From Oceanobacillus oncorhynchi (GTDB lineage: Bacteria; Bacillota; Bacilli; Bacillales; Amphibacillaceae), in assembly GCF_000821065.1 (NCBI RefSeq), contig NZ_CDGG01000001.1, positions 1,798,001 through 1,862,000 of the forward strand: 64,000 nucleotides of DNA, written 5' to 3'. Position numbers and translations under genes: made by a program. A model generated the notes under the pieces. That model was not told where the DNA came from, made no database searches, and was given only the letters and a program-made list of their open reading frames with translations. Numbering within the stretch: position 1 is the first letter of the stretch; each line of letters starts with the position of its first letter. Positions 30,656 to 55,535 of this stretch are shown in pieces.

Positions 30656-32107
30656 TTGTATACATTTCTAGCAGGAATTGTTTTATTAATTATCGGTTAT
30701 TTTACGTATGGGAAATTTATTGAGAAGCTTTTCGGAGTCAAAGAAAGCCGGCCGACACCTGCCTATGTGAACGGAGACGGCATGGATTATATTCCAATGA
30801 GTACACCTAAAAATTCGCTGATTCAGCTTTTGAATATTGCTGGTACCGGTCCGGTTTTTGGTCCGATTATGGGAGCGTTATATGGACCGGCAGCATTTAT
30901 CTGGATAGTAGTGGGATGCATTTTTGCAGGGGCCGTCCACGATTATTTAACAGGGATGATTTCCATCCGGAATCGGGGAGCGCATCTGCCGGAGCTTGCG
31001 AGTAAGTTTTTAGGAAAGGTTATGAAGCATATCGTTAACGGCTTTGCAGTCCTTTTACTATTGCTAGTTGGTACGGTATTTGTTTCTACACCAGCAAGTC
31101 TGCTTCATTTATTAGCGGACGGGCGTGTCGCCCTAGGTATCTTCATTGCTTTTATTTTTGCTTACTATATCTTGGCTACGATGCTTCCGGTCGATAAAAT
31201 TATCGGCAGACTGTACCCTTATTTTGGAGCATTGCTTTTATTGAGTGCAATTGGTGTTGGAATTGGTTTAGTAGTAACGGGAGCACCAATTCCAGAGCTT
31301 TCTTTCCAAAATTTTCATCCTGAAGGGGCAGCTATCTTTCCATTATTGTTTTTTACTATTTCATGTGGTGCTTTATCTGGTTTTCATGCTACACAAACAC
31401 CGATTATATCGCGGACAACCAGAAAAGAAAAAGAAGGACGTAAAATTTTCTATGGCATGATGATTGCAGAAGGGATTATTGCAATGATATGGGCTGCAGC
31501 TGCCATGAGCATGTTTAACGGCTATAATGGATTGAATGACATTTTAGCGGCTGGCGGACCAGGAGCCATTGTAAGTGAAGCTTCCACTACGCTTCTGGGA
31601 GCAATTGGCGGAACGCTAGCCGTGCTGGGTGTTATCATACTTCCAATTACTTCTGGAGATACAGCATTTCGCAGTGCACGAATGATTATTGCAGACTACT
31701 TAAAAATTGGACAGAAAAAGTTCTCCAGCCGTTTGTGGATTGCCTTGCCATTATTTGCAGTATCGATGATTTTAACGCAAATTGATTTTGAATTATTGTG
31801 GCGTTATTTTAACTGGGCAAACCAGTCAACGGCAGTAATTGCTCTATTTGTTGGTTCGATGTATCTCTATATTGCAGGAAAAAATTATTTCGTCGCATTG
31901 ATTCCGGGAACATTTATGCTGATCATGGTTATTACCTATATTTTGTCACAGCCAATTGGTTTTAATTTACCTATGAATATCTCATGGGGAGGCGGCTTTA
32001 TTGGAGCAGCGCTGCTAGTAGTTCTATTTTTTAAAGCAGCTGCAAAGGCACGTGCTAATAATATTCCGCTTGAAGTGGATGTCTCTGATTGGAAGCAAGC
32101 TTCTTAA
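30656..32107 (+). CDS. cstA: CstA-family transporter, probable pyruvate uptake
   Basis: This 483-residue protein with about 12-13 helices has the CstA family blocks: YGKFIEKLFGV, GTGPVFGPIMGALYGP, FISCGALSGFHATQ and GDTAFRSARMI. It is the shorter family form found in Bacillota; E. coli BtsT and CstA are about 700 residues. BtsT is a pyruvate/H+ symporter. The start is TTG with GAGGGGGAG at good spacing. Control by the adjacent LytS/LytT pair and by CcpA is likely. Confidence 0.9.
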   Translation: MYTFLAGIVLLIIGYFTYGKFIEKLFGVKESRPTPAYVNGDGMDYIPMSTPKNSLIQLLNIAGTGPVFGPIMGALYGPAAFIWIVVGCIFAGAVHDYLTGMISIRNRGAHLPELASKFLGKVMKHIVNGFAVLLLLLVGTVFVSTPASLLHLLADGRVALGIFIAFIFAYYILATMLPVDKIIGRLYPYFGALLLLSAIGVGIGLVVTGAPIPELSFQNFHPEGAAIFPLLFFTISCGALSGFHATQTPIISRTTRKEKEGRKIFYGMMIAEGIIAMIWAAAAMSMFNGYNGLNDILAAGGPGAIVSEASTTLLGAIGGTLAVLGVIILPITSGDTAFRSARMIIADYLKIGQKKFSSRLWIALPLFAVSMILTQIDFELLWRYFNWANQSTAVIALFVGSMYLYIAGKNYFVALIPGTFMLIMVITYILSQPIGFNLPMNISWGGGFIGAALLVVLFFKAAAKARANNIPLEVDVSDWKQAS

Positions 32108-32111
32108 TTAT

Positions 32112-32157
32112 AAAAAACAAGATGACTGGAAGCGGTTATCTTGTTCTTTTTTTATAA
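32112..32157 (+). terminator. Rho-independent terminator after cstA
   Basis: AACAAGAT pairs with ATCTTGTT around CTGGAAGCGG, followed by CTTTTTTTAT. Confidence 0.88.
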
Positions 32158-32312
32158 ATTTTACAAATTCATTTCATTTTATTTAATTATTTGTGAATAT
32201 TAACCATAATTATGAGGATATCCCTTAAAAATTAAAAGAATGCTTCTACTTCTCATTGAAATTATGTTACATTTAAACTAGGTAAAAAATTTCACGAAGA
32301 GGAGAGAGGATT

Positions 32313-33542
32313 TTGGATTTAGGGCAAAAACTTAAATTTTTACGAAATAAGCAGAATTCTACCCAGCATGAGATTGTTGAAGGTATTTGTTCTGTATCCT
32401 ATTACAGCAAGATTGAAAACGGTAATGTCGTTCCTAATGAAGAGATTCTACAATTGCTGGCTGAACGGTTTGGAATCGCCCCTGAAGAATTAGTACAAAT
32501 CGAAGAAGTGGTGAATGATCAGGTTGTTCAAGAAGCGGAAAATATCTATAATTTGATTAAAGAAGACCAAGCTGCAGCCAAAGAAGCCTATCAATCATTT
32601 TTGGAAGACTTCGAAAATTCATCGGATCCTGGTATCCGACTGCTGATCAGCTTAATAGAGTTGCGATTTGCTCTAAGATTTTCAACAATGGAGGAAATTG
32701 AAGAAAAATTTCAAGAGGCAGAATCTTTGCAAGATTATAGTAATATGAAGATGATGCCTTTATTTAATAGAGTTTGTGGCTTATACTACTATGAAACAGG
32801 CGATTACGATGCTGCGTTAGAGTTATACCTGGGTCTGGCAAACTCTTTAAATTATCCATACAAAGCAGATATTCACTATGAACTTTCTCTGGTCTACAAC
32901 CGGAAAGGTAACATATATAAATCGATTAAGCATTTGGAAAAAGCTTTAAATAAGTATTTACAGGAAATGAACTATGATAAATGTACAGTTTGTTATTTTT
33001 TGCTAGGTATTAACTACTTTAAGATGGGCAATTATGACGAAGCGATTGATTATTATAATCGTATAGAGAAAGTTATAGAAGATGATAAAAATTTGCTTCG
33101 GAAGGTATATCATAACCTGGGACTGGCCTTTGAAAAAAAGAAGGATATTGAAAAAGCAATTGATTATTATCAACAAAGTCTCTCCGTCTCTATAGAAGAA
33201 CAACATAGTATGAAAACAATATATGCCTTAGCAAAATTGTACTTGAGCATGGAGAATAAAGACAAAGCGATACAGTATATTACGGAAGGAAAAGAAGTGG
33301 CAGAAAAAAAGGGGTTGGAGGAGTATATTATTAAGTTTCATGTACTTCAATTACAGTTGAATGAAGAGAACATTAAAGAATACTTAGAAACCGTTGCTAT
33401 TCCATTTTTTGAAGAGAAAAAGGATACAGAATTCCTCATTTACTCTAATGTACTGTTATCTGATTATTATTCTCAAAATAAGCAGTATAAACAAGCTTAT
33501 TTTAAGATAAAAAATGTTTTAGATATGAAAGGAGGGATTTGA
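32313..33542 (+). CDS. RNPP-type (PlcR/NprR-like) HTH-TPR peptide receptor and regulator
   Basis: The 409-residue protein has an Xre-type HTH at residues 1-60 (LGQKLKFLRNKQNSTQHEI, SKIENG) and a helical remainder with repeated TPR motifs (YNRKGNIYKSIKHLEKAL, YFKMGNYDEAIDYYNRI, LGLAFEKKKDIEKAIDYY and others). This layout is that of PlcR, NprR and Rap/Rgg receptors that bind re-imported oligopeptides. A secreted pro-peptide gene begins at the last base of its stop codon, as with plcR-papR. TTG start with GGAGAGAGG upstream. Its DNA targets are not known. Confidence 0.88.
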   Translation: MDLGQKLKFLRNKQNSTQHEIVEGICSVSYYSKIENGNVVPNEEILQLLAERFGIAPEELVQIEEVVNDQVVQEAENIYNLIKEDQAAAKEAYQSFLEDFENSSDPGIRLLISLIELRFALRFSTMEEIEEKFQEAESLQDYSNMKMMPLFNRVCGLYYYETGDYDAALELYLGLANSLNYPYKADIHYELSLVYNRKGNIYKSIKHLEKALNKYLQEMNYDKCTVCYFLLGINYFKMGNYDEAIDYYNRIEKVIEDDKNLLRKVYHNLGLAFEKKKDIEKAIDYYQQSLSVSIEEQHSMKTIYALAKLYLSMENKDKAIQYITEGKEVAEKKGLEEYIIKFHVLQLQLNEENIKEYLETVAIPFFEEKKDTEFLIYSNVLLSDYYSQNKQYKQAYFKIKNVLDMKGGI

Positions 33543-33667
33543 TGAAGAAATTAATAATTGCTGCATTAGCGGTATTCGCATTTTTCAGTGTAACCATGAC
33601 TGTAAGTGCTGTAGATGAAATTGAGTACCCAGATTCAACACATAGCCTAGATCCGAAAGATTTTTAA
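33542..33667 (+). CDS. Secreted signalling pro-peptide, likely ligand of the adjacent receptor
   Basis: This 41-residue peptide was found by reading on from the receptor stop: the TGA and ATG overlap (TGATG), with GGAGGG five bases upstream. It has a Lys-Lys N-terminus, a hydrophobic core (LIIAALAVFAFFSVTM) and a VSA signal-peptidase-type site at Ala23. The exported part is 18 residues ending SLDPKDF. Phr, PapR and NprX peptides are trimmed outside the cell to 5-8 C-terminal residues, so the active form may be within HSLDPKDF. The pairing and coupling to the receptor make this call strong. Confidence 0.87.
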   Translation: MKKLIIAALAVFAFFSVTMTVSAVDEIEYPDSTHSLDPKDF

Positions 33668-33685
33668 GAGGGTATGTGAAGGATG

Positions 33686-33732
33686 AAAGCTGTCTTGTAC
33701 CATTAGATTGGTGGAAGATGGCTTTTTTTTTG
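33686..33732 (+). terminator. Rho-independent terminator after the pro-peptide gene
   Basis: AAAGC-TG-TCTT and AAGA-TG-GCTTT form an imperfect stem around CCA/TGG, followed by nine T. Confidence 0.8.
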
Positions 33733-33870
33733 CAGAGCAGATGAATTTGGATGCTTTTTTAGGGAATAGATACATATCATAAGGAAGCGTTGGAAGTTAG
33801 AGAGCGGGTTCATCGAAAAAGAGATTGTTTTTATTTATATTTCATGGTAAAGTAATAATATTTCCGTTAC

Positions 33871-33891
33871 AAATCGTAATGATTACGTTTT
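33871..33891 (+). promoter_or_regulatory. Zur-box-like palindrome before the 119-codon gene
   Basis: CGTAATGATTACG (33875-33887) is a perfect 6-1-6 palindrome and lengthens to AAA/TTT outside one mismatch. It matches the core of the B. subtilis Zur box (TCGTAATNATTACGA). A copy with the same 13-bp core lies at 34371-34383. Confidence 0.78.
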
Positions 33892-33921
33892 TGATGAATT
33901 ATTTTATGGGGGGCGTTTAAA

Positions 33922-34281
33922 ATGGAAAGCTACATAGAAGCAAAACTTTTGAATAAGGTGATCAGCCGTTTTCTCTCAAACGAGGAGCGGTTATTATATG
34001 AAAAAGTAATAAATATAGAAAATATGATTTCTGAAAAAGCATTAACACCCGAACATTTTATAGATTTAATCCGAGCTGAATCTCCTCATAAGCATGTAGC
34101 TGAAGCGTTCAATTTATCCTTACACGAACTTCTGGAAGTGTTAAAAGAAATAGAAATAAAGATAGAGAAAAGAACGAAAATGATAAAAGCAGAAGCACGT
34201 TGGCTTGATTGTACAAATGTTGTTTCGACTGCCTTTGAAAAAAATGAACATAGAAAATATTTTTATACAGAAGGATTGTAA
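33922..34281 (+). CDS. Unrecognised 119-residue helical protein, Zur-box controlled
   Basis: The protein is predicted mostly helical, with no signal or membrane segment. It has a possible helix-turn-helix region (HKHVAEAFNLSLHELLEVLKEIE) and one cysteine (WLDCTNV). I recognise no family. GGGGGG is 8 bases before the ATG. The Zur-like box 30 bases upstream predicts expression under zinc starvation, together with the FAD-dependent gene downstream that has its own copy. Confidence 0.65.
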   Translation: MESYIEAKLLNKVISRFLSNEERLLYEKVINIENMISEKALTPEHFIDLIRAESPHKHVAEAFNLSLHELLEVLKEIEIKIEKRTKMIKAEARWLDCTNVVSTAFEKNEHRKYFYTEGL

Positions 34282-34367
34282 TGAAAGGTAATAGAGAAAA
34301 ACAACCATTCGAAAGCGGATATGGGAATCAAATAGGGAGGAATCTCAAGAAAAAATTTTAACTTTTG

Positions 34368-34386
34368 AACCGTAATGATTACGCTT
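34368..34386 (+). promoter_or_regulatory. Second Zur-box-like palindrome, before the FAD oxidoreductase gene
   Basis: CGTAATGATTACG (34371-34383) is identical in its 13-bp core to the site at 33875-33887. It lies 24 bases before the ATG, so a bound zinc repressor would overlap the promoter. Confidence 0.78.
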
Positions 34387-34407
34387 TAAGGAAGGAGAGG
34401 AACAGGT

Positions 34408-35568
34408 ATGTATAAATGGATAGTGATTGGTGGAGGAATCCAAGGAAGCTGTGTTGCTTCCCGGCTGCTTGAAGAGAAAAAAGCAGAGGTAAAAGATGTA
34501 CTGATTATTGATCCACATAAACAGCCATTGGAAAGATGGCGCACAATCACAGAAAAGATTGAAATGAAATATTTACGCTCTCCTTTAGTACATCATTTGC
34601 ATACGGATCCATACAGTTTAAAAAAATACTCTTCTGAAAACAATTATGCCTCGAGTTTGAAAGGACAGTATCAGCGACCGCGTTTGGATATGTTTAATCA
34701 GCACAGTATGGATTTGTTAGAAGAAACAGGCGTCATGGAATGTTGGCTGCAAGGAGTGGTAAACGGACTGTCATGGACGGAACAGAGATGGAAAGTTTGC
34801 ATTGCGGATGGACGTTGTTTCTTTAGTGAGCGAGTGGTGCTTGCTATGGGTGTTAACCATACCCCTCATTATCCCTCATGGATTGACTCGTATAAGGATC
34901 ATAAAGCAATAAATCATGTGTTTGAAATGGATAGCAGCCTTCCGGAAACGGGGGATGTGATTGTAGTTGGCGGCGGGATGACAGCAGCACATCTTGCCTA
35001 TGCACTTACACAAAAAGAATCTATTCATTCTGTCACCATGGTGAAGCGGCATCCGTTACGTGTTCACCATTTTGATAGTGATCCAGGATGGCTCGGGCCT
35101 AAGTATTTGAATAAGTATCATAAATTGACCAGCTATAAGGAACGAAGGTTGGTTATACAAGAAGCAAGGAATCGAGGTTCCATCACCAGAGATTTATATT
35201 TAAAATTATTGAAGCAAAAGAGAGCAGGAAGGCTGGATATTCATACAGGCTGTATTCAAAAGATTAGAGAAGACACGGATGGAAGTATGCAGCTGTTTAT
35301 GGAAAATGAAGCAAAGCTGGAAGGAACCGCTATTTTACTGGCAACCGGTCCAGCCATTGCAATGCCGGGAAAGGAATGGTTAGATCCGCTGATAGAGCAG
35401 ATGCAGTTGCCTTGTGCACCATGTGGTTTTCCAATCGTACCTAAATCGCTGGAATGGAAAAATGGTTTATTTGTGGCAGGAGCGTTAGCTGAGTTAGAGA
35501 TAGGTCCGGCTTCCAGAAATATTGCAGGAGCAAGGAAGGCTGCGGAACGGATTTTGCAGTTTGCTTAG
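34408..35568 (+). CDS. FAD/NAD(P)-binding oxidoreductase (lysine/ornithine monooxygenase-like fold)
   Basis: This 386-residue protein has an N-terminal FAD motif (WIVIGGGIQGSCVASRLL), a central NAD(P) motif (VIVVGGGMTAAHLAYAL) and an ATG-type segment (AILLATGPAIAMPG). QYQRPRLDMFNQHS resembles the substrate side of L-lysine/ornithine N-hydroxylases (SidA/IucD-like), but it is not a close match. GGAAGGAGAGG precedes the ATG. The Zur-like box suggests a role in zinc shortage, perhaps metallophore chemistry, though no synthesis or uptake genes are next to it. Confidence 0.72.
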   Translation: MYKWIVIGGGIQGSCVASRLLEEKKAEVKDVLIIDPHKQPLERWRTITEKIEMKYLRSPLVHHLHTDPYSLKKYSSENNYASSLKGQYQRPRLDMFNQHSMDLLEETGVMECWLQGVVNGLSWTEQRWKVCIADGRCFFSERVVLAMGVNHTPHYPSWIDSYKDHKAINHVFEMDSSLPETGDVIVVGGGMTAAHLAYALTQKESIHSVTMVKRHPLRVHHFDSDPGWLGPKYLNKYHKLTSYKERRLVIQEARNRGSITRDLYLKLLKQKRAGRLDIHTGCIQKIREDTDGSMQLFMENEAKLEGTAILLATGPAIAMPGKEWLDPLIEQMQLPCAPCGFPIVPKSLEWKNGLFVAGALAELEIGPASRNIAGARKAAERILQFA

Positions 35569-35720: not shown

Positions 35721-36494
35721 TTAACGCTTTTTCTTGCGATTAAATACAATTGTAGCTCCAATAATAGAAAAAATAAGCAAACCAATAAACCAGATAATCG
35801 TAATCCATACATTATTATGAAGGGGTGTTCCAGTGAGTAAACTGCGTAATGATTCTATAAATGGTGTCATTGGCTGATTCTCTGCAAAAGTATGGAGCCA
35901 TTTAGGCATGGTTTCTGTTGGCACAAAAGCACTGCTTAAATAGGGAAGGAAAAGCATTGGAAATGTTATCGCATTAGCACTCTCTACACTTTTTACAATA
36001 AGGCCAAACAGTACAAATAACCAACTAGCAGCGAACATAAATAATGCTAAAATACCGACAACTCCAAGCCATTCTAATAATCCAGCAGTTGGTCGGAATC
36101 CAATAATAACTGCTACGAGAATAGTAATGGCTGTAGCGAGCCCATTTCTAGCCATTCCTCCAATAACATGACCTGCTAATAAAGCGGAGGGAAGGATAGG
36201 CATCGTACGAAAGCGTTCAAATAAACCTCCAGTCATATCATCAGCAACTTCTACAGCAACAAGCGAACTCCCAAAAGCGACACATGTTACAATAACGCCT
36301 GGAACAACGTAATTTATATAAGATGTTCCTGTGTCTATTGCACCACCAAAAATATAAACAAACATAAGCATAAGTGCAATGGGGAGACCAATACTCATCA
36401 TCAGTGATTCTATATTTCGGAAAATATGTTTTAATGTACGCTGTGTCATTGTCCAACTATCAAGAATAATCCAAGTCCATTTTGATTCATTCAT
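35721..36494 (-). CDS. ABC-2 family permease, DrrB-like
   Basis: This 257-residue, six-helix permease has the DrrB-type blocks SYINYVVPGVIVTC, GLFERFRTMPILPSALL and AFVPTETMPKWLHTFAENQPMTPFIESLR. It pairs with the ATPase 22 bases upstream to form a daunorubicin-type drug or lipid exporter. It is the last gene of the TetR-controlled operon. Confidence 0.87.
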   Translation of the reverse strand: MNESKWTWIILDSWTMTQRTLKHIFRNIESLMMSIGLPIALMLMFVYIFGGAIDTGTSYINYVVPGVIVTCVAFGSSLVAVEVADDMTGGLFERFRTMPILPSALLAGHVIGGMARNGLATAITILVAVIIGFRPTAGLLEWLGVVGILALFMFAASWLFVLFGLIVKSVESANAITFPMLFLPYLSSAFVPTETMPKWLHTFAENQPMTPFIESLRSLLTGTPLHNNVWITIIWFIGLLIFSIIGATIVFNRKKKR

Positions 36495-36516
36495 AAAATT
36501 ATCAGCTCCTTTCCTG

Positions 36517-37443
36517 TTATTCAGACTTTTTGATTTTTGTTATCTGTATAAATACATCATCTAAGGTTGGTTTACGAATACTTATCGAGGCAGGTTCAAT
36601 TCCATTTTCATGAAGGAGTTGTAATTGTTCGCGCAAACTATTTACGGATGATAACGGAACAAGAATAGTAAGATTCTTTTCATCTGCTTTTCCAGCCAAA
36701 AGCTGCTTGGCAATGGACCAACTTTCTTTTTGATTAGCAAGGTTAATTTCTAGTTTTTCCTCACCCACTAATTTTTTCAATGTTTCTGCTGGACCTTGTT
36801 CTACAATTTTTCCCTCATGTAAAATAGCAATTTTATCAGCGAGTTGATCAGCTTCTTCCAAATACTGCGTTGTAAGAAAAATCGTAACACCTTTATTGGA
36901 AAGTTCTTGGATAAGCTTCCACATGTTGTTTCGGCTTCTTGGGTCTAGTCCAGTTGTAGGTTCATCGAGAAAAATAACCTCTGGAGAAGCAAGCAGACTG
37001 ATTGCGATATCGAGGCGTCGTCTCATTCCTCCTGAATATGTTTTTACAGATTTATTTGCTGCATTTACTAAATCAAACTGATGTAAAAGTTCGATGGTTC
37101 GTTTTTTTACTGTTTGTCTGTCTAAATGATTCAAGCGTCCCATCATCATAAGATTTTCTTTTCCAGTCAGTAATTCATCTACAGCAGCGTATTGTCCAGT
37201 TAAACTGATTCGTTTTTTTACGTTATCGGTATCTTTGCGTGTATCATATCCTCCAATTAGGACAGAGCCGCTAGTAGCGGAAATGAGTGTAGAAAGTATA
37301 TGAACAGTAGTTGTTTTGCCGGCCCCATTTTCCCCCAATAAAGAAAAAACACTCCCTCGCTCTACTTCGAAGTTTATTCCTTTTAAAACAGAATGATTTC
37401 CGTATACTTTTTCTAAATCTTTCACTGAAATAACAGTTTCCAA
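36517..37443 (-). CDS. ABC transporter ATP-binding protein, DrrA-like
   Basis: Walker A is GENGAGKTT, the signature motif is YSGGMRRRLDIA, Walker B is VIFLDEPTTGLDPRSR, and the DrrA-type C-terminal domain ends in PTLDDVFIQIT. TTG at 37443 has AAAGGAGG six bases upstream and is chosen because the longer frame (to 37482) would run into the operator. Substrate unknown; export of a toxic compound is likely. Confidence 0.88.
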   Translation of the reverse strand: METVISVKDLEKVYGNHSVLKGINFEVERGSVFSLLGENGAGKTTTVHILSTLISATSGSVLIGGYDTRKDTDNVKKRISLTGQYAAVDELLTGKENLMMMGRLNHLDRQTVKKRTIELLHQFDLVNAANKSVKTYSGGMRRRLDIAISLLASPEVIFLDEPTTGLDPRSRNNMWKLIQELSNKGVTIFLTTQYLEEADQLADKIAILHEGKIVEQGPAETLKKLVGEEKLEINLANQKESWSIAKQLLAGKADEKNLTILVPLSSVNSLREQLQLLHENGIEPASISIRKPTLDDVFIQITKIKKSE

Positions 37444-37458
37444 ACTAGAACCTCCTTT

Positions 37459-37489
37459 TTGTTGATTGACTAATTCAGTCAATCAACAA
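37459..37489 (-). promoter_or_regulatory. TetR-type operator of the exporter operon
   Basis: TTGTTGATTGACT (37459-37471) and AGTCAATCAACAA (37477-37489) are perfect 13-bp inverted arms around AATTC. It lies in the leader/promoter of the ABC ATPase gene, just ahead of its ribosome site. The TetR-family protein upstream is the obvious ligand. Confidence 0.88.
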
Positions 37490-37497
37490 TTTATAAT

Positions 37498-37540
37498 AAA
37501 CTCCTCCTTTTGTCAAATCTTTTTTGGAGGAGTTTTGTTT
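37498..37540 (-). terminator. Terminator between the TetR gene and the exporter operon
   Basis: AAACTCCTCC (37498-37507) pairs with GGAGGAGTTT (37526-37535), with T-rich sequence on the minus side. It isolates the repressor transcript from the exporter promoter. Confidence 0.75.
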
Positions 37541-37572
37541 TTAATTTTAGGATTTGGAAGTCAGGGGAGAGG

Positions 37573-38181
37573 TTATCGTGTAGTAATCATTCTGAGCAAA
37601 ATTTCTACTTTGCGCTCCATGTCCTCTTGCCAAAATGTAATATCATCAGCAATGACACCTGATAAAGTTGTAAGGAAAATCCCGACAAGTTCTTCGGAAT
37701 CTTCTTGGATAATTTCTCCGTATTCTTGTCCTTCTTTTATAAGAGGTATAAGGAAATTGATATACATTGTCCCAAGACTATCCACGTAATTTTTAACTTC
37801 TTGCGGAGTTTCTTCTTTATTATCCAAATTTTGTATAATTCGAAACACGTAACTAGAAGTGGAGTCTGTGGAGGAAAATGCATATAGAACAAATTTTTTA
37901 ATTTTTTCAGATGGAGGCAGATCATCTTCTTTTAATTTTTCTAAAAAATTAGTTGATGTATTGACAGCAGTTGCCCACTTTAAGCTTTCATACAGAACTT
38001 CTTCTTTTGAAGAGAAATAATGATATATTAATCCATGGCTTACCTTTGCAGCTTTTGCTATCGTGCTTATTTTTGTCAGCTTAATGCCATTGTCTGCAAA
38101 AACTTGAAGTGCTGCACTCATAATCTGTTCTTTTCTTTCATGACGAATCTGTTCTAATTGATTTTCGTTTAAAGGTGCCAT
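37573..38181 (-). CDS. TetR-family repressor of the DrrAB-like exporter
   Basis: This 202-residue protein has the TetR N-terminal HTH (QIMSAALQVFADNGIKLTKISTIAKAAKVSHGLIYHYFSSKEEVLYES) and an all-helical ligand domain. It lies directly upstream of, and in line with, the exporter genes; the perfect palindrome between them is its likely operator. The inducer is probably a compound the pump exports. Confidence 0.88.
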   Translation of the reverse strand: MAPLNENQLEQIRHERKEQIMSAALQVFADNGIKLTKISTIAKAAKVSHGLIYHYFSSKEEVLYESLKWATAVNTSTNFLEKLKEDDLPPSEKIKKFVLYAFSSTDSTSSYVFRIIQNLDNKEETPQEVKNYVDSLGTMYINFLIPLIKEGQEYGEIIQEDSEELVGIFLTTLSGVIADDITFWQEDMERKVEILLRMITTR

Positions 38182-55370: not shown

Positions 55371-55535
55371 ATGGCGATTAAAAAATGGGTAAGTATCGGG
55401 ATTATTTATGTATGTGCTGTAGTTATTGCATATGGTGTGATCACAGGGGATAATCCATTTGAAAGCAATGATTTAGAACCTCATGATCATGCAGCAGCAC
55501 AAGTTGTAGAAGTAAATTCAACTGATTTTATATAG
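55371..55535 (+). CDS. 54-residue membrane protein in the copper operon
   Basis: The ORF starts three bases after the copA stop with GGGAGG eight bases upstream, and runs to TAG at 55533-55535. One hydrophobic helix (about residues 7-25) is followed by a soluble tail with two histidines in EPHDH (His38, His40) and ending STDFI. A strong terminator follows 8 bases later, so it is the last gene of the copper operon. I do not recognise a family; the His pair next to the membrane suggests a metal-related accessory role, unproven. Confidence 0.72.
   Translation: MAIKKWVSIGIIYVCAVVIAYGVITGDNPFESNDLEPHDHAAAQVVEVNSTDFI

Follow-up and report, generated by a model that had tools for sequence, protein, structure and literature searches.

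A probable RRNPP-type receptor with its own propeptide and a predicted internal pheromone in Oceanobacillus oncorhynchi

A receptor gene of Oceanobacillus oncorhynchi and the short open reading frame that begins inside its stop codon form a real pair. Our best explanation, held at roughly three chances in four, is that they make up a complete RRNPP-type unit: a transcription factor with an HTH domain and nine TPRs, encoded together with its own propeptide, whose pheromone would lie inside the exported tail around the residues EYPDSTHS. The stretch of DNA analysed, called the window here, is 64,000 nucleotides long and belongs to a 4.6-Mb single-contig genome. The parts of the locus, counted from the first letter of the window, are as follows.

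32265..32282, forward strand: TGTTACATTTAAACTAGG, a block immediately ahead of the receptor, conserved in 7/7 aligned upstream regions
32313..33542, forward strand: receptor, 409 aa, with an HTH (residues 7-60) and nine TPR helix pairs, from ORF calling, the HTH_3 match, the AlphaFold model and Foldseek
33530..33535, forward strand: Shine-Dalgarno site AGGAGG of the propeptide, within the receptor frame, kept in 7/7 orthologues
33542..33667, forward strand: propeptide, 41 aa, sharing one base with the receptor stop
33542..33610, forward strand: predicted Sec-type leader, residues 1-23, with its VSA end at Ala23
33623..33646, forward strand: predicted pheromone core EYPDSTHS, residues 28-35, from its retention in orthologues and from the P-D segments, some in tandem, of relatives
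33683..33730, forward strand: intrinsic terminator ending the two-gene unit, a stem-loop with a T run in 7/7 orthologues

The receptor frame opens with a TTG start codon, and its TGA (33540-33542) shares one base with the ATG of the propeptide (33542-33544), which follows the AGGAGG site after six bases. The propeptide carries KK at positions 2-3, a hydrophobic core and, beyond the putative cut after VSA, an 18-residue tail that ends in SLDPKDF. The first-pass annotation of this DNA had described a 409-residue HTH-TPR protein, a 41-codon ORF starting in TGATG, a ribosome-binding site upstream of it, and a peptide with Lys-Lys, a hydrophobic core, VSA at Ala23 and this same tail; its coordinates, the overlap, the binding site and the peptide landmarks all proved correct. 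The block TGTTACATTTAAACTAGG is probably a promoter or operator. A simple terminator scan missed the terminator, either since its loop goes beyond the limits of the scan or since its stem does not satisfy the stem rule.

To see how unusual such a follower is, 344 genes were scanned, namely the ORFs of 150 aa or more in 20 pieces of 20 kb from the same genome (400 kb) and in the window, using a score for leader hydrophobicity, K/R at positions 2-7, Shine-Dalgarno match, ATG start and few acidic residues in the leader that was devised after the peptide was known. A follower scoring at least 8 between -60 and +400 was found behind one gene of the 344, the window receptor; at a score of at least 7 between -60 and +60 there were four, the window receptor counted. 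The scan also gave a score of 7.6 to a 54-aa leader-like ORF directly after another gene of the window, at about 55371-55535.

The receptor is present at 77% identity or more in 7 of the 28 Oceanobacillus genomes searched, its own counted; close orthologues occur in records named O. jeddahense, O. sojae (two records), O. neutriphilus and O. sp. CFH 90083. The small ORF overlaps the receptor by 1 or 4 bases in all seven, so no close relative that keeps the receptor has lost it; this joint retention supports the earlier claim that an RNPP/RRNPP receptor and an exportable propeptide are translationally coupled here. The small ORF is under purifying selection: among the seven orthologues, dN/dS (NG86) is 0.17 for the whole ORF and 0.12 for the leader (21 pairs each), and 0.30 for the tail, for which 15 of the 21 pairs were usable and the mean dS of 1.0 is near saturation. 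Because the DNA diverges just beyond the propeptide stop and the stem-loop with its T run comes next in every orthologue, the receptor and the propeptide are probably transcribed as a two-gene unit that has an end of its own.

Leader-like short ORFs are easily over-read, and the family matches of this one are all sub-threshold; both points speak for a coupled membrane or secreted peptide of some other kind that is not a signal. However, candidate propeptides were found behind 104 of the 132 receptor loci examined, many with a common P-centred core and some with tandem copies of it, and we consider such a non-signal peptide very improbable. The picture has gaps all the same: no propeptide was found at the other 28 loci, or, among the 32 relatives standing closest to the clade without belonging to it, at 9, and this counts against our explanation.

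The receptor itself matches HTH_3 at 38.7 bits (cut-off 23), and several TPR families also exceed their cut-offs. Its AlphaFold model, built from a 49-sequence alignment, has a pLDDT of 92.6 and a pTM of 0.83, and its helix list gives nine predicted TPR helix pairs besides the HTH. The top solved chains in Foldseek are Rap and NprR, for example 5dbk_B (TM 0.83 by target length), and PlcR comes at rank 48. Scored with a profile built from 49 relatives, NprR reaches 196 bits and Rap proteins 139-160 bits; through repeated matches, two designed consensus-TPR proteins reach 320 and 174 bits. A PDB search with L030 at an E-value of 1e-15 returned no matches. In the part of PMC12700828 drawn on here, nine nondegenerate TPRs define clan B (QssR, NprR and Rap), where the modelled receptor with its HTH would belong; five-TPR PlcR is placed in clan A, and AloR of Paenibacillus, with more degenerate TPRs, in clan C. 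The pair also fits the sizes and spacing stated for RRNPP_detector in the portion of PMC10075063 that we used, that is, a TPR receptor 250-500 aa long, which in most subfamilies also has an HTH (here 409 aa), and a propeptide of 10-100 aa with an export leader between -60 and 400 bp (here 41 aa at -1 bp, the leader being predicted). RRNPP_detector has 21 candidate RRNPP subfamilies, of which this clade may be one.

With this fold, known pairs can be compared one by one. PlcR-PapR shares the order of an HTH receptor followed by a secreted propeptide, but PlcR belongs to the five-TPR clan and the window receptor is modelled with nine TPR pairs, and the acidic-aromatic C-terminal end of the PapR type is found in only four of the seven orthologues. 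Rap-Phr shares the nine-TPR fold, and the leader is weakly Phr-like (15.9 bits against the Phr leader model TIGR04429, under its cut-off of 25); Rap receptors, however, have no HTH domain, and three of the four Spo0F contacts treated below differ. The first-pass annotation had taken both PlcR-PapR and NprR-NprX as its models; the former falls away on TPR number and fold rank, and the latter stands as the better analogue.

How far the likeness to NprR goes is a more delicate matter. Both systems have an HTH and nine TPRs and the same gene order, with the receptor ahead of a short Sec-type propeptide; among the solved relatives NprR is one of the best matches, and the NprX signal SSKPDIVG given in the sections of PMC4970707 available to us also has an x-P-D core. 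One could thus suppose that the window receptor is a true NprR orthologue, bifunctional, inhibiting Spo0F without its peptide and activating transcription with it. The residues argue otherwise. They were compared through an alignment of about 20% identity, possibly off locally by a residue or two, using NprR residues from those same sections with a numbering offset of 59, which fits W79, R126, Y165, W167 and the Y223A/F225A mutant chain. The Spo0F-contact residue D107 of NprR corresponds to D105 (N in one of the seven orthologues), but the contacts Y118, E188 and Y223 become E116, K184 and M219, the lock Y165/R343 becomes G163/G334, and W79 becomes I78. The NprX contacts R126, W167, H201, N306 and D309 are not conserved either (S124, Y165, R197, H298 and K301 here), which we count against our own explanation as well. 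Judging from these sequences, the window receptor probably lacks the Rap-like inhibition of Spo0F, unlike NprR. We find a true NprR orthologue quite unlikely; the window receptor also belongs to a well-supported clade separate from an EPSIFS-type clade of 49 rows, and NprR is insecurely placed in the trees.

One residue does hold across the divide. Asn268 of the window receptor is aligned with an Asn of NprR and is invariant in 49/49 relatives, and we take such an Asn to hold the peptide backbone in this receptor family. Because the contact and lock residues differ and NprR has no secure place in the trees, we therefore say that the receptor acts like NprR-NprX as a transcription factor, without claiming that it is NprR.

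The trees were built from 106 and 104 receptors: three of 109 were dropped from the first for being shorter than 380 aa (L041, L044 and L080), and L012, L015, L024 and L051 were also left out of the second. Together with L040, L042 and L043, the seven rows of the window clade are grouped with strong support (99* and 100/100). Two other clades stand apart from this group: one of 49 rows, with mostly EPSIFS-like peptides, and one of 24 rows, with peptides such as EPDP and EHPDP. NprR and Rap stand on long branches. The motif classes of the propeptides cluster on the tree, needing 22 changes where shuffling gives 55 on average, and neither class has a single origin (6 changes for EPS, 14 for xPD); these classes come from a crude regular expression, which calls L022 and L105 xPD though they lie in the EPSIFS clade and calls L040 (DDDLPPPL) EPS.

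Where in the tail the signal sits is best seen from the seven orthologues. After the leader their tails read VDEIEYPDSTHSLDPKDF (window), AVGIEYPDSTLSIEPEDA, DEIEYPNSTLSVEKGK, AEPEYPDSTHSLNPNDDF, DEIQYPDSTHSLDPKDS, GDLEYPDSTHSLNPNDDF and GGSVEYPDSTHSLNPNDDF. The first-pass annotation had placed the signal in the C-terminal 5-8 residues, here SLDPKDF, which one cut would free as in most Phr peptides. This is where the pheromone of most known quorum-sensing propeptides lies, Phr and PapR included, according to the part of PMC9765709 consulted, and this counts against an internal signal; four of the seven orthologues moreover share the D-F end, acidic plus aromatic. But the ends vary (LDPKDF, IEPEDA, VEKGK, LNPNDDF three times and LDPKDS, with DA, GK and DS in place of D-F), while YP[DN]ST[HL]S is kept in all seven, and the unit that is repeated in the tandem propeptides of relatives is the P-D segment. 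We therefore judge a C-terminal signal unlikely and place the pheromone within EYPDSTHS, since repeats mark the part that matters. Internal pheromones freed by two cuts have been described for PhrH and PhrK (PMC7425212, as far as the text used here goes), and repeated propeptides are known from NprR systems, where they account for 17 of 17 atypically large ones in the consulted part of PMC9765709.

The more distant relatives carry this argument further. Their segments equivalent to the core follow an acidic-x-P-[D/E] pattern. Single P-D segments outside the clade include DDYPDPLK, EDDYPDPLN, DEELPDPIH, DDELPDPRV, SADLPEPYS, EESDYPDSP and GHEYPDTHA, and the tandem units include HERFPDS three times (L162), DELYPDP three times (L011), EEEHP[DE]PS two or three times (L018 and L023) and ESHPDP six times (L016). 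Other repeat units, NNPGIK, NNPSIK and SEPDHPKIV in L155, L159 and L165, count against the P-D reading. The motif [FYWHL]P[DEN] was sought after residue 22 in non-identical propeptides of receptors outside the clade and compared with 2000 shuffles. Behind receptors of at least 130 bits it occurs in 13 of 23 propeptides (shuffled mean 3.7, maximum 9), and behind those of 110-130 bits in 7 of 13 (mean 1.8, maximum 7). Below 110 bits its 12 occurrences in 57 do not go beyond the shuffles (mean 6.3, maximum 16).

There is also a hint that receptor and core are matched. The core has an L in the orthologues L002 and L003 and an H in the other five, and these two receptors share six residues (178, 181, 191, 194, 251 and 351) at which the other five are uniform and different. 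Four of the six fall within 17 residues and adjoin R197, which is aligned with the peptide contact H201 of NprR in the residue set used above. Other orthologue pairs share 0-2 such residues, except L003 and L005, which share five scattered ones. With seven sequences and an unsettled branching order, the matching is offered as a prediction.

In the mechanism that we propose, the propeptide would be exported by Sec and cut after VSA, and trimming of its tail from both ends would leave a short peptide from the interior with EYPDSTHS at its centre; YPDSTHS and EYPDST are possible forms. This peptide would be re-imported by an Opp permease, for which the eight oligopeptide-binding proteins of the genome should be enough, and its binding in the TPR groove would switch the DNA binding of the receptor. 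Translational coupling would keep the ratio of receptor to signal fixed, and the likeliest first direct target is the promoter of the receptor itself. A whole-genome scan for the TGTTACATTTAAACTAGG block with up to 3 mismatches gave 114 sites, and the reversed control likewise gave 114, so that no regulon site emerged; this counts against our explanation. A promoter scan gave 11 sites with 10.7 expected, and Rfam had no matches on 31900-34500.

The genes next to the pair vary on the left and are more constant on the right. The left neighbours are LytS-LytR-CstA-type genes in the window and L034 (CstA by Pfam, the others by eye) and, all by eye, a sugar-ABC-like cluster with a HAD-like gene in L031, L032, L033 and L035 and a CorA-like gene in L149. 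On the right, six of the seven orthologous stretches have a 119-aa gene and then an FAD oxidoreductase, which in the window are arranged as follows.

33871-33891: Zur-type box, 1 mismatch, before the 119-aa gene
33922-34281: 119-aa gene, an ORF for which Pfam has no family
34367-34387: Zur-type box, 3 mismatches, before the FAD oxidoreductase
34408-35568: FAD oxidoreductase

The boxes were called with what we take to be the Zur consensus, and the first has a chance expectation of 0.02 per window. Box cores were present at 11 of the 11 loci examined of homologues of the 119-aa gene (14 loci were fetched), and one distant homologue adjoins a CobW-like GTPase, by eye. A close copy of the gene (at least 66% identity) occurs in 6 of the 7 receptor-bearing genomes and in none of the other 21 of the genus; two of these 21 carry a copy at 31-33%. 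The gene was considered as a target of the receptor and rejected: it lies beyond the terminator, it has a Zur-type box, and the seven genomes may be one branch of the genus. We take it for a zinc-regulon gene. As each follows a Zur-type box, the 119-aa gene and the FAD oxidoreductase are more likely zinc genes than receptor targets. Past the FAD oxidoreductase and ahead of a two-component system, the window has ABC transporter and TetR-type genes (35721-38181); the other six orthologous stretches showed no homologue of them.

The RRNPP receptor-propeptide kind is already known. The motifs EHPDP, EYPDS, DYPDP and ELPDP were not found in the searched literature on RRNPP or propeptides, nor is Oceanobacillus named in the main texts of the RRNPP literature examined; supplements lay outside both searches, as did the RRNPP_detector propeptide set for the motifs. 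Accordingly, the exact pair with its EYPDST core was not found in print, which is not to claim that it is uncatalogued. More tentatively, and leaning slightly against it ourselves, we raise the possibility that the window represents a so far undescribed RRNPP subfamily, made up of nine-TPR transcription factors, that would stand apart from NprR, would have lost the Spo0F job, and would use internal acidic-[Y/F/H/L]-P-[D/E]-[S/P/T] pheromones across several families of the order, with residues 178-194 helping to set H-versus-L specificity.

What the pair offers is a candidate pheromone with a predicted core, directly testable, for a genus without an RRNPP signal named in the literature searched. 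Retention across relatives and tandem-copy propeptides can together locate an internal pheromone, and a synthetic peptide chosen by the customary C-terminal rule would, on our placement of the signal, be the wrong one here. Should the Spo0F contacts truly have been lost, this clade would offer a natural test case for the parting of transcription-factor receptors from Rap-type inhibitors.

Relatives of the receptor also turn up on mobile elements. A phage search gave 12 records, all of which fell short of 80% query coverage; the best 10 of the 12 reach 43% coverage and come from phi3T/SPbeta-like phages, five of them annotated as Rap. Among 112 plasmid records, 11 are nearly full length at 24-31% identity. 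The nearly full-length relatives H1-H8 (27-31% identity) are on large plasmids of Priestia, Cytobacillus and Mesobacillus and are annotated as HTH or TPR proteins only.

The window genome has a second receptor of the family, L059 (G000:C1:2850836-2853847), which belongs to the EPSIFS clade and has no propeptide candidate downstream. Three sister receptors, L095, L102 and L104, likewise lack a propeptide candidate downstream, and the four are possible orphan receptors. In two cases receptors of different clades stand side by side, each with its own propeptide type: L041 with L098 (G125:C28), and L044 with L100 (G175:C29), where a stop falls within the receptor match of L044. Finally, five propeptides of 110-126 aa contain six or seven tandem pheromone-like units, which are ESHPDP in L016, EHEPSIFS in L067, HDAEPSIFS in L117, DN[SN]PGIK in L155 and DNNP[SG]IK in L159.
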